The notes below the pieces were generated by a model. It had not been told where the DNA came from, made no database searches, and saw only the letters and a list, made by a program, of their open reading frames with translations. A stretch of DNA of 64,000 bases, from NCBI RefSeq assembly GCF_947496385.1, contig NZ_CANMCP010000005.1:1-64000 (forward strand), written 5' to 3'. Within the stretch, counting starts at the first letter, position 1. Each line of letters starts with the position of its first letter. Positions 1 through 44,494 of this stretch are shown piece after piece. The position numbers and the translations under genes are program-made. The DNA comes from an uncultured Croceicoccus sp. (lineage in GTDB: Bacteria; Pseudomonadota; Alphaproteobacteria; Sphingomonadales; Sphingomonadaceae).

Positions 1-1
1 A

Positions 2-82
2 TGGGCCAATCGCACCGACAGCAACTGCCGCATCTGCTTCGTCCTCATCGACGGCAGGTTCGAACCGGAGTTGGAAGGCTGA
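2..82 (+). CDS. 3' end of an unidentified gene (partial)
   Basis: An open frame enters from the left edge and ends with TGA at 80-82, giving the last 26 residues of a protein that finishes with Arg-Phe-Glu-Pro-Glu-Leu-Glu-Gly. It stops two bases before the probable GTG start of the P450 gene, which is the tight spacing of an operon, so it is more likely a real gene end than part of the P450. Too little is present to name a family. The two cysteines (Cys-Arg-Ile-Cys) are visible but do not suffice to call a metal site. Confidence 0.45.
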   Translation, partial: WANRTDSNCRICFVLIDGRFEPELEG

Positions 83-84
83 CT

Positions 85-1269
85 GTGCCTGCCGTGCCGG
101 TGGATGTCGATCCCTTCGGCGACGAGTTCCTTCGCGATCCCTATGCGTTTCACGGGGCGCTCCGGGACGCGGGGGCCGTTATCTGGCTCCCCGCGATCAA
201 CGCTTTCGGCATGGCCCGGTTCGAACATGTCAGCGCCGCGCTGAAGGATCACGAAACGTTCTGCTCATCACGGGGTGTCGGGCTTGCCGACTTCGCCAAA
301 GAGGAACCGTTCCGCGCACCCTCTCTCCTGCTGGAGGCCGATCCGCCGCTGCACGACAGAACACGTCAGCTGATGAACAGGATCGTGTCGCCCAAAGCCT
401 TGAAGGATTTGCGACCGCAATGGCAGGAGAAGGCCGACAGGCTGGTGCGGACGCTGGCCACCGGAATCGAGTTCGATGCGGTGACCGAACTTGCCGAGGT
501 TTATCCGATGATGGTGTTTCCCGATACGATCGGGCTGATGGACGAGGGGCGCGAAAACCTGCTCGACTATGCGGCGATCGTCTTCAACGCATTCGGCCCC
601 AGGAACCAGATTTTCGAGGACGGCATCCGGGGCAGCGAGGCGGCGATCGCCTGGGTCGATGCTGCGTGCAAGCGCGAAAACCTGAAGCCCGGCGGGTGGG
701 GAATGGCGGTGTTCGAAGCCGCGGATCGCGCGGAATGCTCGAACGAAGAGGCCGAACGGCTTGTCCGGTCATTCCTTACCGCAGGCGTCGATACGACGGT
801 CAACGGTATCGGGCACCTCGTGCTGGCGCTATCGCAAAACCCGGATCAATTCGCCCGGCTGAGGGCGGACCCCGCGCTGGCGAAAAAGGCATTCGAAGAG
901 AGCTTGCGCTGGGATTCCACCGTGCAGACGTTCTTTCGGGTGACCACGCGGGATGTGGAAATCGACGGGACAGCGATACCGCAAGGCGCGAAGGTCCTGC
1001 TCTTCCTGGCCGCAGCCAATCGCGATCCCGGCCACTGGATCGAGCCGGAGCGGTTCGACATCGAACGCAATGTGAGCGGACATGTCGGCTTCGGCTTTGG
1101 CATCCATCAATGCCTTGGGCAAATGGTGGCGAGGCTGGAAGGGGAACTCGTCGCGAAGGCGCTTGCGCAGAACGTCGCTTCGATCAGGCCGTTGGGGGAG
1201 CCGGTTCGCCGTCTCAACAATACGCTTCATGCGCTTGCGAGCTATCGCGTCGCGGTTCAACCCGCATGA
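85..1269 (+). CDS. cytochrome P450
   Basis: Haem-thiolate monooxygenase of about 394 residues. The haem-binding segment GFGFGIHQCLG puts the ligand at Cys343, the I-helix carries AGVDTT near residue 233 and the K-helix ExxR is ESLR near 272. It is soluble, of bacterial class I type, and needs a ferredoxin and reductase not present beside it. I place the start at GTG 85 because the reading frame before it overlaps the end of another gene; an ATG at position 1 would add 28 residues with no P450 character. The gene precedes an aromatic-glycoside catabolic cluster, so a role in oxidising or O-demethylating an aromatic aglycone is a fair inference; the substrate cannot be read from sequence. Confidence 0.9.
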   Translation: MPAVPVDVDPFGDEFLRDPYAFHGALRDAGAVIWLPAINAFGMARFEHVSAALKDHETFCSSRGVGLADFAKEEPFRAPSLLLEADPPLHDRTRQLMNRIVSPKALKDLRPQWQEKADRLVRTLATGIEFDAVTELAEVYPMMVFPDTIGLMDEGRENLLDYAAIVFNAFGPRNQIFEDGIRGSEAAIAWVDAACKRENLKPGGWGMAVFEAADRAECSNEEAERLVRSFLTAGVDTTVNGIGHLVLALSQNPDQFARLRADPALAKKAFEESLRWDSTVQTFFRVTTRDVEIDGTAIPQGAKVLLFLAAANRDPGHWIEPERFDIERNVSGHVGFGFGIHQCLGQMVARLEGELVAKALAQNVASIRPLGEPVRRLNNTLHALASYRVAVQPA

Positions 1270-33714: not shown

Positions 33715-34644
33715 TCAGCCTCCGTCCGCTTCGCGCGCGCGTTCCGCGGCAAGCTCGGCCTGCGCCTTCGCCCGGCCCGGCACGCGCATGTAGGTGCGGT
33801 CGGGCGCGCGCATATCGAACACCGCGACCTGCCCGCCGAGCAGGCGATTGGTGCCGTCGTCGCGCGCAAAGGTGACGAGCGCATCGCGCGCCTCCTCGTC
33901 CCCTTCGGGCAGGGCGAGCACCTGCCCGGTCGCGAAGGTCAGGTTCCAGCGGCGATTGCCGATCCATTCCGCGCCGCGCACCTGCGGCTTGAGCGCGGGC
34001 GCGATGTCGAGCAATTGCGCAAGATCGACCGCGCGATCCTCCGCCCCCTCGCCCGACAGGACGAGCATCTTCTCCGCCCGCCCCCGCGGCACCGGCTCCA
34101 GCCTGTGGCCCGAGGGATCGATCAGCACGAATTCCTCGCCCTGACGCAGCACGGCATGCGGTTTGCGTTCCACCACGTCGATCACCAGCGCATCGGGCAA
34201 TTGCCGCGACACGCGCGCATCCTGCACCCAGGGTAGCGCGACCAGATCGGCGCGCAGGCTGTCGAGATCGAGCAGCGGCATCGGCACGTTACGCGCGGCG
34301 AGCGCCTTGGCATAGATCGCCTGCTCGTCCATGCGGTTCACGCCGCGCACCTCGATCCGGTGCACGGCGAACCCGGCGCTGTCCGCCGCATCGGCCACCC
34401 GGGCGCGGATCATATCGGGCACGCCGAGCAGGACGGCCAGCCCCCATGCCGCGATGGCGAGCGCCGCCGCGATCAGCAGCTGAAAGAATTTCTGCAAGCC
34501 GCGTTCGGAAACGGGCAGCACGCGCATGATCGCGTCGGCCGCGCCGCCGGTGCGCGCCTTTGCCGTGTTGACGGCCTTGCGCTTGCCCTTGGCGGCGGCG
34601 GCGCGGCGGACGCCCTTTCCGCCGCGGCGGATGGTGGTGCTCAT
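33715..34644 (-). CDS. ftsQ: Cell division protein FtsQ
   Basis: Bitopic divisome protein of 309 residues. A basic cytoplasmic N terminus of about 50 residues (RRGGKGVRRAAAAKGKRKA) precedes one membrane helix (FQLLIAAALAIAAWGLAVLL). A POTRA domain follows (VHRIEVRGVNRMDEQAIYAK) and then the beta domain with LPDALVIDVVERKP. ATG 34644 overlaps the murB stop as ATGA. In relatives a ddl gene usually lies between murB and ftsQ; here none does. Confidence 0.95.
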   Translation of the reverse strand: MSTTIRRGGKGVRRAAAAKGKRKAVNTAKARTGGAADAIMRVLPVSERGLQKFFQLLIAAALAIAAWGLAVLLGVPDMIRARVADAADSAGFAVHRIEVRGVNRMDEQAIYAKALAARNVPMPLLDLDSLRADLVALPWVQDARVSRQLPDALVIDVVERKPHAVLRQGEEFVLIDPSGHRLEPVPRGRAEKMLVLSGEGAEDRAVDLAQLLDIAPALKPQVRGAEWIGNRRWNLTFATGQVLALPEGDEEARDALVTFARDDGTNRLLGGQVAVFDMRAPDRTYMRVPGRAKAQAELAAERAREADGG

Positions 34645-35609
34645 GCCCCCGCCTCCACCGGCTCGCCCGCAAAACGGCCCACGCGGCGGATTTCCCAATC
34701 CAGCGTCACGCCCGAATGCGCCTTGACCCGGCGGCGCACCTCCTCGCCCAGCATTTCGATGTCGCGGCTCGTCGCCTCGCCCGTGTTGATGAGGAAATTG
34801 GTGTGCTTCTCGCTCACCTGCGCATCGCCGATGGCAAGACCGCGGCACCCCGCCGCATCGACAAGTTGCCAGGCCTTGTGCCCGTCGGGATTCTTGAACG
34901 TGGACCCACCGGTCTTGGTGCGCAAAGGCTGGCTGTTTTCGCGCGCTTCGGCGATGCGGTCCATCTCGTCGCCAATGGCATCGGGGTCGCCCGGCGTGCC
35001 GCGGAACGTGGCGGCGGTGACGATCGCGCCGTCGGGCAGGTCGGAATGGCGATAGCGGTAGCCCATGTCACCGGGACCGAACGTGGCGGATGTCCCATCG
35101 CGCAGCACCACATCGCATGCGACGAAAATATCGGCCACCTCGCGCCCATACGCCCCGCCGTTCATCCGCACGAAACCGCCGACCGTGCCGGGAATACCGC
35201 GCAGGAACTCCATCCCAGCAATGCCCGCATCGCGCGCGCTGCTCGCCGCCAGAATGCCGCTCGTCCCGCCGCCCATGCGCAGGGTCGTGGGGTCGAGCGC
35301 CTCCACCTCGGCGAAGGCCTTGCCCAGCCGCACGACGACGCCGTCCACGCCGCCATCGCGCACGATCATGTTGGAGCCGAGGCCAATTCCCATCACCGGC
35401 ACCCAGCCGGGCAGCGCGGCGAGGAATTCGCACAGATCCTCGGCATCGGCCGGCTCGAACAGCAATTCGGCCGGTCCGCCCGTCTTGAACCAGGTATATT
35501 TGGCGAGCGGCGCCATCGCGCGCAATTTCCCGCGCGGCGCATCGATGGCGAACGCCCCGCCATTCAGCCTGATCTCGAGACGATCCCCATGCTCGACTAG
35601 ATCCGCCAT
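34641..35609 (-). CDS. murB: UDP-N-acetylmuramate dehydrogenase MurB
   Basis: FAD enzyme of 322 residues that reduces UDP-GlcNAc-enolpyruvate to UDP-MurNAc. YTWFKTGGPAELLFEP starts the FAD domain, GLGSNMIVRDGG is the pyrophosphate loop, GIPGTVGGFVRMNGGAYG the core motif, and KTGGSTFKNP holds the catalytic Ser region of type I MurB. ATG 35609 overlaps the last base of the murC stop (TGATG). Its end overlaps the ftsQ start. Confidence 0.97.
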   Translation of the reverse strand: MADLVEHGDRLEIRLNGGAFAIDAPRGKLRAMAPLAKYTWFKTGGPAELLFEPADAEDLCEFLAALPGWVPVMGIGLGSNMIVRDGGVDGVVVRLGKAFAEVEALDPTTLRMGGGTSGILAASSARDAGIAGMEFLRGIPGTVGGFVRMNGGAYGREVADIFVACDVVLRDGTSATFGPGDMGYRYRHSDLPDGAIVTAATFRGTPGDPDAIGDEMDRIAEARENSQPLRTKTGGSTFKNPDGHKAWQLVDAAGCRGLAIGDAQVSEKHTNFLINTGEATSRDIEMLGEEVRRRVKAHSGVTLDWEIRRVGRFAGEPVEAGA

Positions 35610-37030
35610 CACGCGCCCCTTTTCGCGGCGACGGCATCTGCCAGCCCGGCGGCCCAGCGGGTGATGTCCCCCGCGCCAAGGCACACGATCATATCGCCCG
35701 GTTCGACAACGCCGGCCAGTGTTGCGGCGAGTGCATCGGCATCCTCGACCACGGCGGTCTGCCGATGGCCCCGATCCTTCAGCCCGGTGACAAGCGCATC
35801 GGCATCCACGCCCTCGATCGGCTCCTCGCTCGCGGCGTAGACCGGCGTGACATAGACGATGTCGGCATCGTTGAAGGCGCTCTGAAAATCCTCCATATGG
35901 TCGCGCAGGCGGGTGTAGCGATGCGGCTGCGCCACCGCGATGACACGGCCCGTCGCCCCTTCGCGCGCGGCGGACAGCACGGCGCGGATTTCCACCGGGT
36001 GGTGGCCGTAATCGTCGATAACGATCGCCGGTTCGCCGCCGGTCGCGATCTCGCCCACCTTGGTAAAGCGGCGCTTGACCCCGCCGAACCGGGCAAACCC
36101 GTCGCGCACCGTTTCGAACGGGCATTGCATTTCGACGGCGACCGCAATCGCGGCCAGCGCGTTCTGCACGTTGTGGCGGCCCGGCATCGGCAATTCGATG
36201 CCCTCGATCCGTTCGGCGGTGCCGTCGCGGTGGCGGATGGCAACGTCGAACCGATTGCCGCCGGGCACCGGGGTCACGTTTTCGCCGCGGATGTCGGCCT
36301 GCGCGCTGAAGCCATAGGTGACGACGCGGCGGTCGCGGATCTTCGGCAGGATCGCCTGCACCTCCGGATGGTCGAGGCACAGCACGGCGGCGCCGTAGAA
36401 CGGCACGTTCTCGATGAATTCGACGAAGGCGTTCTTCACATTGTCGAAGCTGCCGTAATGGTCGAGATGTTCGGGGTCGATATTGGTGACCACCGCGATC
36501 GTCCCGTCGAGGCGGAGGAAGCTGCCGTCGCTTTCATCGGCCTCCACCACCATCCATTCGCTGGTCCCGACGCGTGCGTTGGAGCCGTAGCTGTTGATGA
36601 TGCCGCCATTGATGACGGTGGGGTCCACCCCCCCTGCGTCGAGCAGGGCGGCGACCATCGATGTCGTTGTCGTCTTGCCATGGGTACCGGCGACCGCGAC
36701 GGTGCGTTTCAACCGCATCAGCTCGGCCAGCATTTCGGCGCGCCTCACCACCGGGATGCGATTTTCGAGCGCGGCGACAACCTCCGGATTGTTGCGGCGG
36801 ATCGCGGTGGAGGTGACGAGCACGGCGGCGCCCGCGACATTTTCCGCCTTCTGCCCGATCATCACCGGGATGCCTTTTTTGCGCAGCCCCTCGATCACGT
36901 GCCCTTCGGAAATATCCGAACCCTGCACGTCATAGCCGAGGTTGTGCATGACCTCGGCAATGCCGGACATGCCGATGCCGCCGATCCCTGCAAAATGGAT
37001 GGTGCCGATGTCTGTGCCGACGCCCTTCAT
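35609..37030 (-). CDS. murC: UDP-N-acetylmuramate-L-alanine ligase MurC
   Basis: Mur ligase of 473 residues adding L-Ala to UDP-MurNAc. The N-terminal [18 protein letters not shown] binds [16 protein letters not shown] is the ATP P-loop, EADESDGSF and [11 protein letters not shown] are ligase motifs, and [11 protein letters not shown] is in the C-terminal domain. The gene is complete and starts at ATG 37030, overlapping the murG stop as ATGA. It is a useful contrast with the murF-like gene in the same operon, which lacks the equivalent P-loop. Confidence 0.98.
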
Positions 37031-39425: not shown

Positions 39426-40780
39426 GGCTGCTGTCTCGCCTCCTCGATCGCACGCACGTTCTGAATGAAGCATTCGCCGCGCTTCTCGTAATCGCGGAAC
39501 TGGTCGAAACTCGCGCATGCGGGCGACAGCAGCACGACATCGCCCGGCGTAGCCGCGGCGGCGGCGGCATGGACTGCCTGGCCCAGCATTTCCGCCCGCG
39601 TGACGGGGACGTGGGGCGACAGAAGACCGGCAAACATCTCGCCCGCCTCGCCAATGGTGTAGGCCGCGGCCACGTGGTGCAGCCAGTCTGCGCATTCCTC
39701 CAGCGCGTCCCCCTTGGCCAGCCCGCCGACGATCCAGTGGATGCGGGCCCGCCCCTCCCGCGGCGCGAAGGCGGCGAGCGCCGGCGCAGCGGAGGCCGGG
39801 TTCGTCGCCTTGCTGTCATTGATGAACACGGTGCCGCCAATGTCGGCGACACGCTGCATCCGGTGGGGCAAGCCTGTAAAGCTGGCCAGGGCGCGCGCGA
39901 TGTCCGCATCGTTCAGCCCGCATGCCCGCGCCGCGGCGGTCGCGGCCGCGACATTGGCCCGGTTGTGCGGCCCCTGCAGCGCGGGCCAGTCCGACTGCTG
40001 CGACGGGATCGCGACATCCTCGATCACGGTGGGCGCCCGCCCGGCGAGCGCCTGCGCCACCTGCGGGATGGTGCGCAGCGACCGCGCATCGACAATCGCG
40101 GTGCCCGCGCCGCCCTGCATCTCGAAAAGGCGGGCCTTCGACGCGGCATAGCCTGCGAAACCGTCGTCGTACCGGTCGAGATGATCGGGCGTCAGGTTGA
40201 GCAGCATGGCGCAATCGCAGGCGAGCGAATGGGTCAGGTCGATCTGGTAACTCGACAGTTCGAGCACATAGACCCCACCTTCGGGAAGCGCCTCGGTCGC
40301 GAGGATGGGAATCCCGATGTTGCCGCCCATGCGCGCGGCGATGCCCGCGGTGTCGAGCATGTGCTGCACCAGCGCGGTCGTCGTGGATTTTCCGTTGGTG
40401 CCGGTGATGCCGACGACCTTGTGCGGCGGCATCGCGGCGCGGTTCTGCGCGAAAAGCTCGATATCGCCGATGAGCGGTACGCCGGCCTCCTGCGCGATCC
40501 CGGCAATGGGATGACGGTTGATCGGCACGCCCGGCGATACGACGATCCCGTCGAACCCGGCAAGCGCGCCCGCATCCATTTCGCCCAGTTCGACGCGCCC
40601 GTCGCTCGCCGCCATGGCCGCGTCGCGCGCATCCGCGTCCCGGTCCCACGCCCGCACATGCGCCCCGGCATTGAGCAGGGTGCGCACCGCCGCCTGCCCG
40701 CTGCGCGCAAGGCCGAGCACGGCATAGCGGCGCCCGGCGAAAACCTGCGGCGACAGGATCGAGGCGGCGCCCCCGCTCAC
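39422..40780 (-). CDS. murD: UDP-N-acetylmuramoylalanine-D-glutamate ligase MurD
   Basis: Mur ligase of 452 residues adding D-Glu. The UDP-binding [15 protein letters not shown], the P-loop [25 protein letters not shown] and [16 protein letters not shown] are all present, so domains 1, 2 and 3 are complete. The start is GTG 40780, which overlaps the mraY stop (GTGA); the frame continues upstream only inside mraY. Its catalytic loop is intact, unlike the murF-like gene two places upstream. Confidence 0.96.
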
Positions 40781-41838
40781 CGCAGTTTCAACGTCGCGAG
40801 TCCGATCACGGCCAGCACGATGGCCACGATCCAGAAGCGGATGACGACGGTGGATTCGGCCCACCCCTTCTGCTCGAAATGATGGTGGATCGGTGCCATC
40901 TTGAAGACGCGCTTGCCCGTCCGCTTGAACCAGAACACCTGAATGATGACCGACGCGGCCTCCAGCACGAAAAGCCCGCCGACGATACCGAGCACGACCT
41001 CGTGATGCGTGCCCACCGCGATGGTGCCGAGCGCCCCGCCGAGCGCGAGCGAACCTGTATCGCCCATGAACACCGCGGCAGGCGGCGCATTGAACCACAG
41101 GAACGCAAGCCCCCCGCCGATGATCGCGGCGCACAGAATGGCAAGCTCGCCCGCGCCCTCCACAAACGGAATGCCGAGATAGGCGGCAAAATCGGTCCGC
41201 CCGACGAGATAGGCGATGATCGCGAACGTGCCCGCCGCGATGATCACCGGCATGGTGGCCAGCCCGTCAAGCCCGTCGGTCAGGTTCACCGCATTGCCCG
41301 CGCCGACGATGACGAAGGCGGCAAATACGTAGTAAAGCGGACCCAGAGGAATCCCGAACGTCACGAAGGGCAAATAAAGGCTGGTATCGCGCACGATCAG
41401 CCACGCGGCGATCCCGGCAATGAGGAATTCCCCCGCCAGCCGCACCCTTCCGGGCACGCCCGCGTGGCTCGATTTGCGCACCTTGTCCCAGTCGTCGAGG
41501 AAGCCGATCAACCCGAAACCCACGGTCACCGCGATGCATGCCCACACTAGAAACGAGCGCAAATCCATCCACAGCAGCATGGAGACGGTCACGCTGATCA
41601 ACACGAGCAGCCCGCCCATCGTCGGCGTGCCCCGCTTGGCCAGATGCGTCTGCGGCCCGTCGAGGCGGATCGGCTGCCCCTTGCCCTGGCTCAGCCGGAG
41701 CATGTTGATGAAGCGCGGCCCCATCACCAGCCCGATGACCAGCGCGGTCAGCAGGCAGGCCCCGGCGCGGAATGTCTGATACCGGACAAGATTGGCCAGC
41801 CCCTCGAAATTCAGCCACTCGGCAATCAGAAAAAGCAT
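40777..41838 (-). CDS. mraY: Phospho-MurNAc-pentapeptide transferase MraY
   Basis: Membrane enzyme of 353 residues with ten helices that transfers phospho-MurNAc-pentapeptide to undecaprenyl phosphate to form lipid [13 protein letters not shown] carries the catalytic acidic pair, [13 protein letters not shown] the third Asp, and [10 protein letters not shown] the C-terminal signature. It starts at ATG 41838. The 191-base gap to the preceding murF-like gene is unusual within this overlapping operon. Confidence 0.98.
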
Positions 41839-42029
41839 CGAAATTCCCTTGGCGCACCGGCGAACCGGGGCGGCGCGATTGCAATGTCAACAAGGCCGGC
41901 GCATGCGACCCGCGATAATGCCATGGGCGATTGGGTGCCGCTTGTGAAGAACCCTGTTGTCCGGTTTCCCCGACGCGGCGCCGCGCGCGCGGATCGGGGC
42001 GGGATCGAAATGGCCCGCCGTGCCATGGT

Positions 42030-43010
42030 TCAGCCCGCCCTGCCCCCGGACGCGCCGCCCCCCGAAGCCTTGCCCGCAAACGCATCGTCGGCCAGCGTCA
42101 TCGCCGCCGCGCCGAGCGATGCACCCGCCGCACGCATCGCGCCGATGATCGCCATCGTGGCATCGGCATCGGCACTGTCGGCGACGGTATAGCACAGCGG
42201 ACGGCCATGGATTTCAACCGAGAGCAGCGTCCCGCCGAACGGTCCGACCACGCCATCGAGCAGGCGGATGTCGGCACTCGCCCGGCGGCCATAGCCGGTG
42301 ACCGCGGCGCCCGCGTCCATCGCCGCGGCGCGCCATCGCGCGAAATCGGGATGGTCGGCAGGAAGGATTGCGGCGCCGCCCGCCTCGACCGAAGCGGCGG
42401 CGCGGCGGCCGGCCTCGCGGCCTGTATCTCGCCCGAGAATGACGAGATGGGGCCGCAGCGGTTCGGGCGCGGCGACGCCGTCGATCCCGAAGAGCGCATG
42501 GCTGCGATCCGCCGCCATCCGGCACAGCGCGAGGTCGAGCCCCTGCCCCGTCTCGGTGGTCCAGCTTGTGCCCCGGCTGGCGAGCTTGAGCGCGCGGCCC
42601 AGCACATCCGCCACCGCGCCGCCGGTAAAGCCGAGGATCGCCATGACCGTACCGCGCGCCCGGTTGCGCGACGCGCGCGCGAGGCGCGACAACGCCTCCC
42701 CCGTTTCGTCGACGAGGATATGTGGGCCTTGCACCCGCTGCGTCGTGACGATGCCCGCCGCGCCTTTGGCCCGTGCAGCCTGCGCATCGATGTGGCCTTG
42801 CGCGAAATAAAGCGTGCCGTCGTCCACATCATCCGCGACGGTGGCGATATCGGTTGCGGCGAAATCGCCGATCAACTGCCCGCCGACCGAACTTGCCACC
42901 GCCTGCGCGCGCCATAGGGGCTTGTCGGCGAGGCCGTGCGTTTCCGCGATGATCTGCGCACGGGTTGCCGAGGGGACGGGGCGTATGCTGACCTTGGATG
43001 CACCACTCAT
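42030..43010 (-). CDS. MurF-like protein lacking the ATP-binding loop and C-terminal ligase domain
   Basis: Protein of 326 residues at the murF position, against about 450-490 for MurF. LWRAQAVASSVGGQLIGDF, a GPHILVDETGEALSRLAR block and a later AILPADHPDFARW / GYGRRASADIRLL block follow the MurF order. Where the P-loop GxTGSxGKT is expected (residues 124-132, bases about 42605-42640) the sequence reads AILGFTGGA, with no Lys or Thr. The NNHxGVP and HW(V)xN motifs of the central domain are also absent. After residue about 310 it ends in Gly/Ser with none of the DESYNANP-type third domain. I checked the other frames there and found no hidden continuation. ATG 43010 overlaps murE as ATGA. As it stands it should not ligate D-Ala-D-Ala; it may be a decayed gene or a non-catalytic paralogue. 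Confidence 0.75.
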   Translation of the reverse strand: MSGASKVSIRPVPSATRAQIIAETHGLADKPLWRAQAVASSVGGQLIGDFAATDIATVADDVDDGTLYFAQGHIDAQAARAKGAAGIVTTQRVQGPHILVDETGEALSRLARASRNRARGTVMAILGFTGGAVADVLGRALKLASRGTSWTTETGQGLDLALCRMAADRSHALFGIDGVAAPEPLRPHLVILGRDTGREAGRRAAASVEAGGAAILPADHPDFARWRAAAMDAGAAVTGYGRRASADIRLLDGVVGPFGGTLLSVEIHGRPLCYTVADSADADATMAIIGAMRAAGASLGAAAMTLADDAFAGKASGGGASGGRAG

Positions 43011-44494
43011 GCTGCGCACTCCCTTGCTACGGTGACATCGTCGAACGGTTCGATCCGCTGCGCCTCGCCGCGCCCGTGGATCTGTCCCTGTTCGTGGCCT
43101 TTCCCTGCGATGAGGACGATATCGCCCCGCCCGGCCTCGCCGATGGCGGCGGCGATGGCCTCGCGCCGGCCCGCAACTTCGCGCAAGGTGCCTTGATCGG
43201 CGCCGGCAAGGATCGCGGCGCGGATGGCGGCCGGATCCTCGCCGCGCGGATTGTCGTCGGTGACGATGGCGATGTCGCTGGCGCGTGCGGCGACCGTACC
43301 CATCGGTCCGCGCTTTCCGGTATCGCGGTCGCCGCCCGCGCCGAACACCGTGATGAGCCGCCCCGACACATGCGGGCGAAGCGCCGCAATCGCGGCTTCC
43401 AACGCGTCGGGCGTGTGGGCGTAATCGACATAGACCGGCGCGCCCGCCCGGTTGATCGCCGCGCGTTCGAGCCGGCCACGCACCGGTTGCAAGCGCCCCA
43501 TCGCATCGAACACCTGGGCCGCGTCCGGACCGTCCTTCCCGCCCGTCACGATGGCCAGACCTGCGGCACACAGCGCATTCGCCGCCTGATACGCGCCGAT
43601 CAGCGGAAGGCGGATCGTGCGTTCCTGGCCATTGTGCAGGATGGCAAGCTCCTGCCCCAGCTCGGTCGGTGTGCGCGAAAGGAGACGTATCCCCCCGCCC
43701 CCGTCATCGCCGCCATCCCCGTTCTCACCCACCGCGAAGAGCCGCAATCCGCGCCGCCGTACCCAGTCCGCGACGGCCGCGCTCTTGCCATCGTCCATCC
43801 ATACGACCGCGGCGCCGCCATCGTCGACGACCTCTTCGACAAGGCGCATTTTCGCCGCGAAATAATCGTCCATGTCGGCGTGGTAATCGAGATGGTCACG
43901 CGACAGATTGGTAAAGGCACAGGCGGCAACCGGCAGGCCTTCGTTGCGATATTGGGAGAGGCCGTGGCTCGACGCCTCATACGCGACATGGGTGACCCCT
44001 TCGCGCGCAAGGCCGGTCATGTTCGACAGGAAGGTCGCGATGTCCGGCGTGGTCAGTCCGGTCGACACCGATTCGTCCGGCGTCGTTACGCCCAGCGTGC
44101 CGATCGACGCCGCGGAAAAGCCGCACATGCGCCAGATCTGCCGCGTCATTTCGACCGTCGACGTCTTGCCATTGGTGCCGGTCACGGCGACGACGGTTTT
44201 CGGCGTGGGACGGAAAAAGCCCGCCGCGATGCGGGCAAAGGCGCGGCGCGGTTCCGCATCGGCGATGTGGATCGCGCCATCGACATGCGCCTCGGGCCGG
44301 GCGACGATGGCGACCGCACCCGCCGCGATCGCCTGCGGGATGTAATCCTCGCCATTGGCGGTGCTGCCCCGGAACGCGCCGAAGACGCTGCCCTTGGCGA
44401 CCTTGCGATTGTCGATGGCAAAGCCGGTGACTTGCGCCTCGCCCGCGACCGCTTCGTATCCCGCACGTTCGAGTAGCGTGTTCAGCCGCATCAA
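43007..44494 (-). CDS. murE: UDP-MurNAc-tripeptide synthetase MurE (meso-diaminopimelate type)
   Basis: Mur ligase of 495 residues. VTGTNGKTSTVEM is the P-loop, TTPDIATFL and YEASSHGLSQYR are central motifs, and DNPRGEDP is the motif that selects meso-diaminopimelate, so the stem peptide is of the Gram-negative type. ATG 44494 overlaps the ftsI stop. The gene appears fully intact. Confidence 0.97.
   Translation of the reverse strand: MMRLNTLLERAGYEAVAGEAQVTGFAIDNRKVAKGSVFGAFRGSTANGEDYIPQAIAAGAVAIVARPEAHVDGAIHIADAEPRRAFARIAAGFFRPTPKTVVAVTGTNGKTSTVEMTRQIWRMCGFSAASIGTLGVTTPDESVSTGLTTPDIATFLSNMTGLAREGVTHVAYEASSHGLSQYRNEGLPVAACAFTNLSRDHLDYHADMDDYFAAKMRLVEEVVDDGGAAVVWMDDGKSAAVADWVRRRGLRLFAVGENGDGGDDGGGGIRLLSRTPTELGQELAILHNGQERTIRLPLIGAYQAANALCAAGLAIVTGGKDGPDAAQVFDAMGRLQPVRGRLERAAINRAGAPVYVDYAHTPDALEAAIAALRPHVSGRLITVFGAGGDRDTGKRGPMGTVAARASDIAIVTDDNPRGEDPAAIRAAILAGADQGTLREVAGRREAIAAAIGEAGRGDIVLIAGKGHEQGQIHGRGEAQRIEPFDDVTVARECAA

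Follow-up and report, generated by a model that had tools for sequence, protein, structure and literature searches.

In Croceicoccus, the murF position of the dcw cluster is occupied by a degenerate murF, and we propose, with a probability of roughly 0.75, that Ddl and MurF gave way to an acquired Ddl2-MurF2 cassette, the old MurF surviving as a pseudoenzyme. At the level of sequence, the loss of the catalytic motifs, the retention of the gene throughout the genus, the purifying selection acting on it, the lack of any other MurF or Ddl above the curated cut-offs and the presence of the cassette are established. That MurF2 and Ddl2 carry out the chemistry is very probable in our judgement, and is inferred from genome content, with no biochemistry for a D-Ala-D-Ala adding activity. 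The window analysed here is a stretch of 64,000 nucleotides from an uncultured Croceicoccus sp. (Alphaproteobacteria, Sphingomonadales; contig NZ_CANMCP010000005.1).

The degenerate murF and its product

The preliminary description of this locus had placed AILGFTGGA at residues 124-132 of the dcw MurF, had found in the protein neither a P-loop nor the NN..GVP and HW..N motifs nor the C-terminal domain 3, and had described an intact frame of about 326 codons that overlaps murE by four bases and is followed by 191 bases before mraY. All of these points were borne out (Table 1). The translation carries AILGFTGGA, the pattern G..GK[ST] occurs in none of the 14 genus members, alignment with canonical MurFs confirms the loss of both further motifs, and domain 3 is absent in 14/14. 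The overlap with murE (ATGA) is an in-frame overlap of 4 bp in all 14 members, so that pseudo-MurF is probably translated in step with murE. The claim that the gap before mraY is the only large one from mraZ to ftsA agrees with the list of open reading frames, but stays provisional, as not every start was measured.

Table 1. Features of the window around the murF position and layout of the pseudo-MurF protein
Feature	Position	Strand	Remarks
murB-ftsQ junction	33715..36380	(-)	no ddl in between; coordinates of the longest open frames
mraY	40777..41838	(-)	next gene
191-bp gap	41839..42029	(-)	domain-3 coding part missing here; holds a genus-conserved element
pseudo-MurF (degenerate murF)	42030..43010	(-)	326 aa + stop, frame open
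pseudo-MurF, N-terminal extension	aa ~1-30		
pseudo-MurF, domain-1-like part	aa ~31-118		
pseudo-MurF, domain-2-like part	aa ~119-310		without P-loop
pseudo-MurF, domain 3			absent
murE	43007..44494	(-)	intact, with P-loop GTNGKT; shares 4 bp with the start of pseudo-MurF

In addition to these motifs, the D-S-R..ALKG..DGH loop, the UDP-loop signature in domain 1 of canonical MurF, was found to be lost in the 14 genus proteins, which were aligned with 26 canonical MurFs (25 in the consensus; L050 and L037 omitted as duplicates). With starts chosen by script, all 14 genus copies end at 321-340 aa.

The relation of the dcw protein to MurF (UDP-MurNAc-tripeptide:D-Ala-D-Ala ligase, TIGR01143/PRK14093) rests on its place in the cluster and on similarity. 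Identity to MurFs of its own family is 30-38% across roughly aa 31-310, and the NCBIfam models NF010693 (E 3.3e-14 over aa 29-308) and TIGR01143 (E 5e-7) match it far below their cut-offs. Pfam returned no match for the protein, and a phmmer search of PDB sequences gave no MurF or Mur ligase up to E 1. Foldseek ranked MurF structures first; the model submitted was of low confidence (3-sequence alignment, mean pLDDT 40.6), and no domain claim is based on it. A different protein family with no MurF relation is contradicted by the NCBIfam matches and the identity values, and weakly by Foldseek. Judged by these alignments, the dcw protein is a MurF homologue comprising domains 1 and 2, and differs from MurF in having no ATP site (P-loop), no NNHxGVP motif, no UDP-loop signature and no domain 3. 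Among the Foldseek matches to the same low-confidence model were the entries 8xzv_J and 8r6s_Q, which we take to be the plastid MurE-like subunit of chloroplast RNA polymerase; this, too, would be a Mur ligase homologue serving as a structural part, albeit a different Mur ligase in a different complex.

Retention and selective constraint within the genus

Pseudo-MurF matches were obtained in 50 of 60 genomes (our own and 59 relatives), including 13/13 other genus members, whose copies are 50-95% identical to that of the window and free of internal stops. An error of sequencing or assembly affecting a normal murF, regarded beforehand as a possible refutation, is thereby practically ruled out, since all 14 Croceicoccus genomes share the state at the identities just given; no support for it was found. 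The two checks suggested at the outset, conservation in related genomes and dN/dS, were both positive. All 14 Croceicoccus genomes carry the degenerate gene at this position, and its dN/dS is 0.05-0.30 in ten close pairs, with bootstrap upper limits of at most 0.42. In the same close pairs the values are 0.07-0.19 for murE and 0-0.11 for mraY (15 pairs, close and distant, were compared in all), and in the pair G010/G013 pseudo-MurF is as low as murE. Between distant Croceicoccus clades dN/dS rises to 0.39-0.56 (three pairs, dS 0.8-1.2), indicating that pseudo-MurF evolves much faster than MurE or MraY. Across the 14 proteins, 99 alignment columns are invariant.

Regional pN/pS was computed in two sets of close pairs. 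The genus-specific N-terminal extension ranks among the most constrained parts (0.05 and 0.12), followed along the protein by domain 1 (0.38 and 0.11) and the first (0.27 and 0.31) and second half (0.19 and 0.18) of domain 2, and little or no constraint remains on the C-terminal tail (1.11 and 0.64). As far as these rates allow us to judge, pseudo-MurF is a conserved non-catalytic relic under purifying selection, not an accident.

It might be objected that the remnant merely decays, its frame held open by translation of the murE/mraY operon (polarity or spacing) and its protein functionless. The relaxed C-terminal tail would fit such a course, as would the clean deletions of murF in seven MurF2-bearing genomes and the different pieces kept in different lineages (see below). 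Amino-acid constraint in ten pairs, whose bootstrap limits stay well short of 1, the 99 invariant columns, a constrained extension that is specific to the genus and, in G010/G013, a dN/dS matching that of murE all speak against this explanation, which we regard as improbable. A remnant under purifying selection may also be decaying slowly, and lineages without it live.

A Ddl2-MurF2 cassette as the probable replacement of Ddl and MurF

The preliminary description had supposed the active enzyme to be encoded elsewhere. No complete canonical murF was found elsewhere in the same genome; the search returned instead a MurF-like ligase, a 534-aa protein on contig C1 that lacks domain 1, has predicted membrane segments and is called MurF2 here. 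Mur_ligase_M occurs five times in this genome, in MurE, MurC, MurD, a FolC-like protein (contig C2) and MurF2, the names MurC, MurD and FolC-like being assigned by position and size. MurF2 matches PF08245 (Mur_ligase_M) and PF02875 (Mur_ligase_C) over cut-off, no domain-1 family, and TIGR01143 with 203.8 bits, below the curated cut-off of 288.6. Aligned with the solved MurFs 4cvk and 1gg4, it keeps GSxGKT, EMGA, AH, the lysine, HN..N, DDAYNAN and ELG, and TGS.GKT, EMGAY, AH and DD..N.N are conserved in at least 95% of 38 MurF2 proteins, as is a QQ..Y motif in the predicted membrane part. By a hydropathy scan, the first 132 residues of the C1 protein hold four hydrophobic segments; in their N-terminal part, the 38 proteins have between one and five. 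MurF2 resembles MurF in its middle and C domains and in its catalytic motifs, whereas it lacks domain 1, carries predicted membrane segments instead and scores under the cut-off.

Directly upstream of MurF2, with a 4-base overlap, lies an alpha/beta hydrolase, and divergent to the latter a Ddl-like ligase (Ddl2), which matches PF01820 (Dala_Dala_lig_N) and PF07478 (Dala_Dala_lig_C) over cut-off and TIGR01205 with 211-213 bits, below the curated 245.65. In 14/14 genus genomes the MurF2 and Ddl2 matches share a contig, with less than 2 kb between them; the intervening hydrolase was verified in G000, G009 and G001 only. The hydrolase (L052:8763-9566) adjoins MurF2 in Croceicoccus and also in G039, G041, G046, G559 and G658.

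No MurF over the curated cut-off was detected in the 14 genus genomes except one in G006. This full MurF lies in a second dcw cluster on contig C14 (L143), 38-61% identical to the dcw proteins of the window and probably part of a contaminating contig (G006 contamination 5%). Ddl over the curated cut-off is absent in 14/14 genus genomes, and present in 21/22 other family genomes searched alongside, the exception, G020, having it split in two pieces. In the window as well as in Croceicoccus hydrothermalis, ftsQ follows directly after murB. The earlier proposal, that dcw retains a MurF without catalytic function while the active enzyme is encoded elsewhere, is supported by these results, its second part being only probable. 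The term paralogue had to be given up: by position the dcw gene is the native orthologue, and the replacement MurF2 is the xenologue.

The joint presence of both proteins in 14/14 Croceicoccus would also be expected if pseudo-MurF were a non-catalytic partner lending its substrate-binding domain to MurF2, in effect a MurF split into two subunits, and the domains appear complementary: MurF2 has the middle and C domains and lacks domain 1, and the remnant has domain 1 plus part of domain 2 and lacks domain 3. Such a division of labour is unlikely in our opinion, as the canonical UDP-loop signature of domain 1 is itself gone in Croceicoccus, and it is further weakened by the seven genomes that carry MurF2 with no remnant adjoining murE.

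Alternatively, MurF2 and Ddl2 might serve some other role, e.g., in secondary peptide or envelope modification, with the MurF step performed by an unrecognised enzyme or dispensable. The sub-threshold scores of both proteins leave room for this possibility, and MurF is retained by 4/22 class carriers and by 13/15 order genomes with a MurF2-like second match (MurF over cut-off; P-loop checked and present in five, G036, G041, G043, G049 and G056). We nevertheless give it little credence. Apart from MurF2, the Mur_ligase_M domain is confined in the own genome to MurC, MurD, MurE and the FolC-like protein, MurF2 is the sole MurF-like ligase in several lineages, and ftsI in the window is intact, with STFK and KTG motifs. 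Because of the carriers that keep MurF, MurF2 could have begun with another role.

MurT of the MurT/GatD system for lipid II amidation is reported to be a Mur ligase relative with a central P-loop domain and a C domain that acts on lipid I/II and not on UDP-linked precursors (PMC6085368). MurF2 is comparable in lacking a canonical uridine-binding domain. It differs in its MurF motifs and predicted membrane segments, and it is accompanied by a Ddl-like ligase and an alpha/beta hydrolase, without a GatD glutaminase. Given the missing uridine-binding domain and the predicted membrane segments with QQ..Y in its place, MurF2 may act after MraY. A possible, though speculative, extension is that MurF2 adds D-Ala-D-Ala to lipid-linked MurNAc-tripeptide (lipid I/II) and that the dead MurF is part of the MurE-MraY hand-over. 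If so, Croceicoccus and several further alphaproteobacterial lineages would invert the textbook order of MurF before MraY, and MraY would take UDP-MurNAc-tripeptide as substrate.

MurF2 (E 1e-40 or better) is present in 11 of the 397 family genomes sampled, which are exactly the 11 Croceicoccus among them, i.e., one of 96 genera; G002, G006 and G012 lie outside this sample, and their MurF2 was found in a separate search. Canonical MurF over cut-off was found in 371 of the 397. Of the remaining 26, 11 are the Croceicoccus genomes, another 11, all of them assemblies of at least 260 contigs, gave no match at 1e-50, and four, judged from the E-values among the matches listed, gave weaker ones (G020, G246, G389 and G396). 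The MurF of G020, which is 86% complete, and that of G246 are split in two pieces. In the phylum sample, MurF2 occurs only in G000 (1/299, E up to 1e-60). A midpoint-rooted FastTree of 38 MurF2 proteins groups Croceicoccus with family f124 (local support 0.998) and separates it from the same-order families f2, f5, f6 and f7. Transfer of MurF2 from outside the family would be the simplest reading of this distribution and tree, and horizontal transfer of the whole cassette, likewise inferred, is in our view probable.

Fate of murF in other carriers and a putative role of the remnant

In the class sample, MurF2 was detected in 23 of 385 genomes, and the murF slot was inspected in the 22 of these carriers other than our own genome. 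A clean loss, with murE adjoining mraY, was observed in six (G539, G643, G656, G480, G695 and G460), a degenerate gene in seven, a full-length MurF with P-loop in four (G537, G803, G619 and G640, the last below the curated cut-off), and five remained unresolved owing to contig ends or incompleteness (G435, G453, G491, G559 and G788). Two of the degenerate genes are unfused (G739, 430 aa; G658, 152 aa, assigned from its position and a visual likeness to the C-terminal part of G739), and five are fused to MurE, without a P-loop in G472, G443, G574 and G671 (the last assigned by similarity to the other two f28 tails) and with the P-loop kept and other motifs lost in G587. Within the order, G040 shows a clean murF loss and G047 a remnant cut by a contig end. 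The fused tails of f28 are likewise constrained, with a pN of 0.25 and a pS of 0.65 for G443/G574, compared with 0.11 and 0.74 for their MurE. A Ddl-like match lies within 5 kb of MurF2 on the same contig in 17 of 24 genomes and on another contig in seven; G658 additionally carries Ddl over cut-off. MurE proteins with a degenerate MurF at the C-terminus were noted at L136, L137, L147, L142 and L146, in the alphaproteobacterial families f28, f57 and f45.

An association control was restricted to the 222 class genomes of at least 90% completeness, 201 of which have canonical MurF over cut-off. This MurF is absent in 10/12 MurF2 carriers versus 11/210 non-carriers (Fisher p 3e-10; 1e-8 with G640 classed as MurF-bearing; uncorrected for phylogeny or shared ancestry). 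The 11 non-carriers without MurF over cut-off (G452, G679, G499, G514, G651, G676, G431, G446, G490, G609 and G567; G676 inferred from its E-value among the matches listed) yielded no MurF2 in a profile search, only partial weak matches appearing in G514 and G651, so that other causes of MurF absence or divergence must exist. G490 and G609 (family f75, 0.9 Mb) are near-complete small genomes in which no MurF candidates were seen at first look, and possibly lack peptidoglycan synthesis.

According to the proposed displacement, a Croceicoccus ancestor would have gained a cassette of Ddl2, the alpha/beta hydrolase and a membrane-anchored MurF2 from another alphaproteobacterium. Ddl2 would make D-Ala-D-Ala, and MurF2 would join it to the tripeptide wall precursor at the membrane. 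Because the cassette would both make and attach the dipeptide, the native ddl could then be lost, and murF could lose its ATP site, substrate loops and domain 3. The remnant would be kept as a non-catalytic protein for what its surfaces bind; its likeliest task, in our view, would be a structural one, to hold or tune MurE, or a MurE-MraY-MurG assembly, via inherited domain surfaces. We surmise that MurE is the first candidate partner, as the 4-bp overlap is found in 14/14 genomes and MurE fusions occur in f28, f45 and f57; such a scaffold role is an inference that we hold only tentatively, at somewhat less than even odds. The clean deletions in 6/22 class carriers and in G040 speak against a general need for the remnant, and, since remnants of different lineages retain different parts, no single conserved role is proven.

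A Bordetella MurE-MurF fusion is reported to bind MurG and is proposed as a scaffold (PMC6420597). The degenerate MurFs fused to MurE in f28, f45 and f57 are comparable in their physical coupling; both enzymes are active in the Bordetella protein, whereas here the MurF part lacks a P-loop, except in f45, where the P-loop is kept and the other motifs are lost.

Both pseudoenzymes and non-orthologous displacement have precedents, and MurF and Ddl are treated as standard wall-synthesis steps and drug targets. Within the open-licence literature, searched by titles and the openings of abstracts, no MurF loss or replacement in Croceicoccus or Alphaproteobacteria was found, and to the extent of that search it would be new for a membrane cassette to displace Ddl and MurF together while a dead MurF is retained. 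Should a membrane-bound ligase cassette have taken over repeatedly in nature, this would demonstrate that MurF and Ddl can be displaced together; genomes at different stages are available, with both enzymes, a dead MurF, a fused dead MurF or no MurF. Whether D-Ala-D-Ala is added after the lipid step, and what job remains for a dead Mur ligase in the dcw complex, become testable questions. Where annotation takes murF in dcw for granted, such genomes would wrongly be flagged as having a gap.

The 191-bp gap downstream of pseudo-MurF gave no Rfam match inside 41839-42029 and no fold signal in an RNA fold test (z-score +1.2), and the exact word TGGGGAAA is absent from the gap of this window. It does hold an element conserved in the genus, composed of GGGGA[AC]A (14/14 members), CTTCACA (13/14) and CAT[GT]GC (14/14), which may serve mraY as a promoter or regulatory site.
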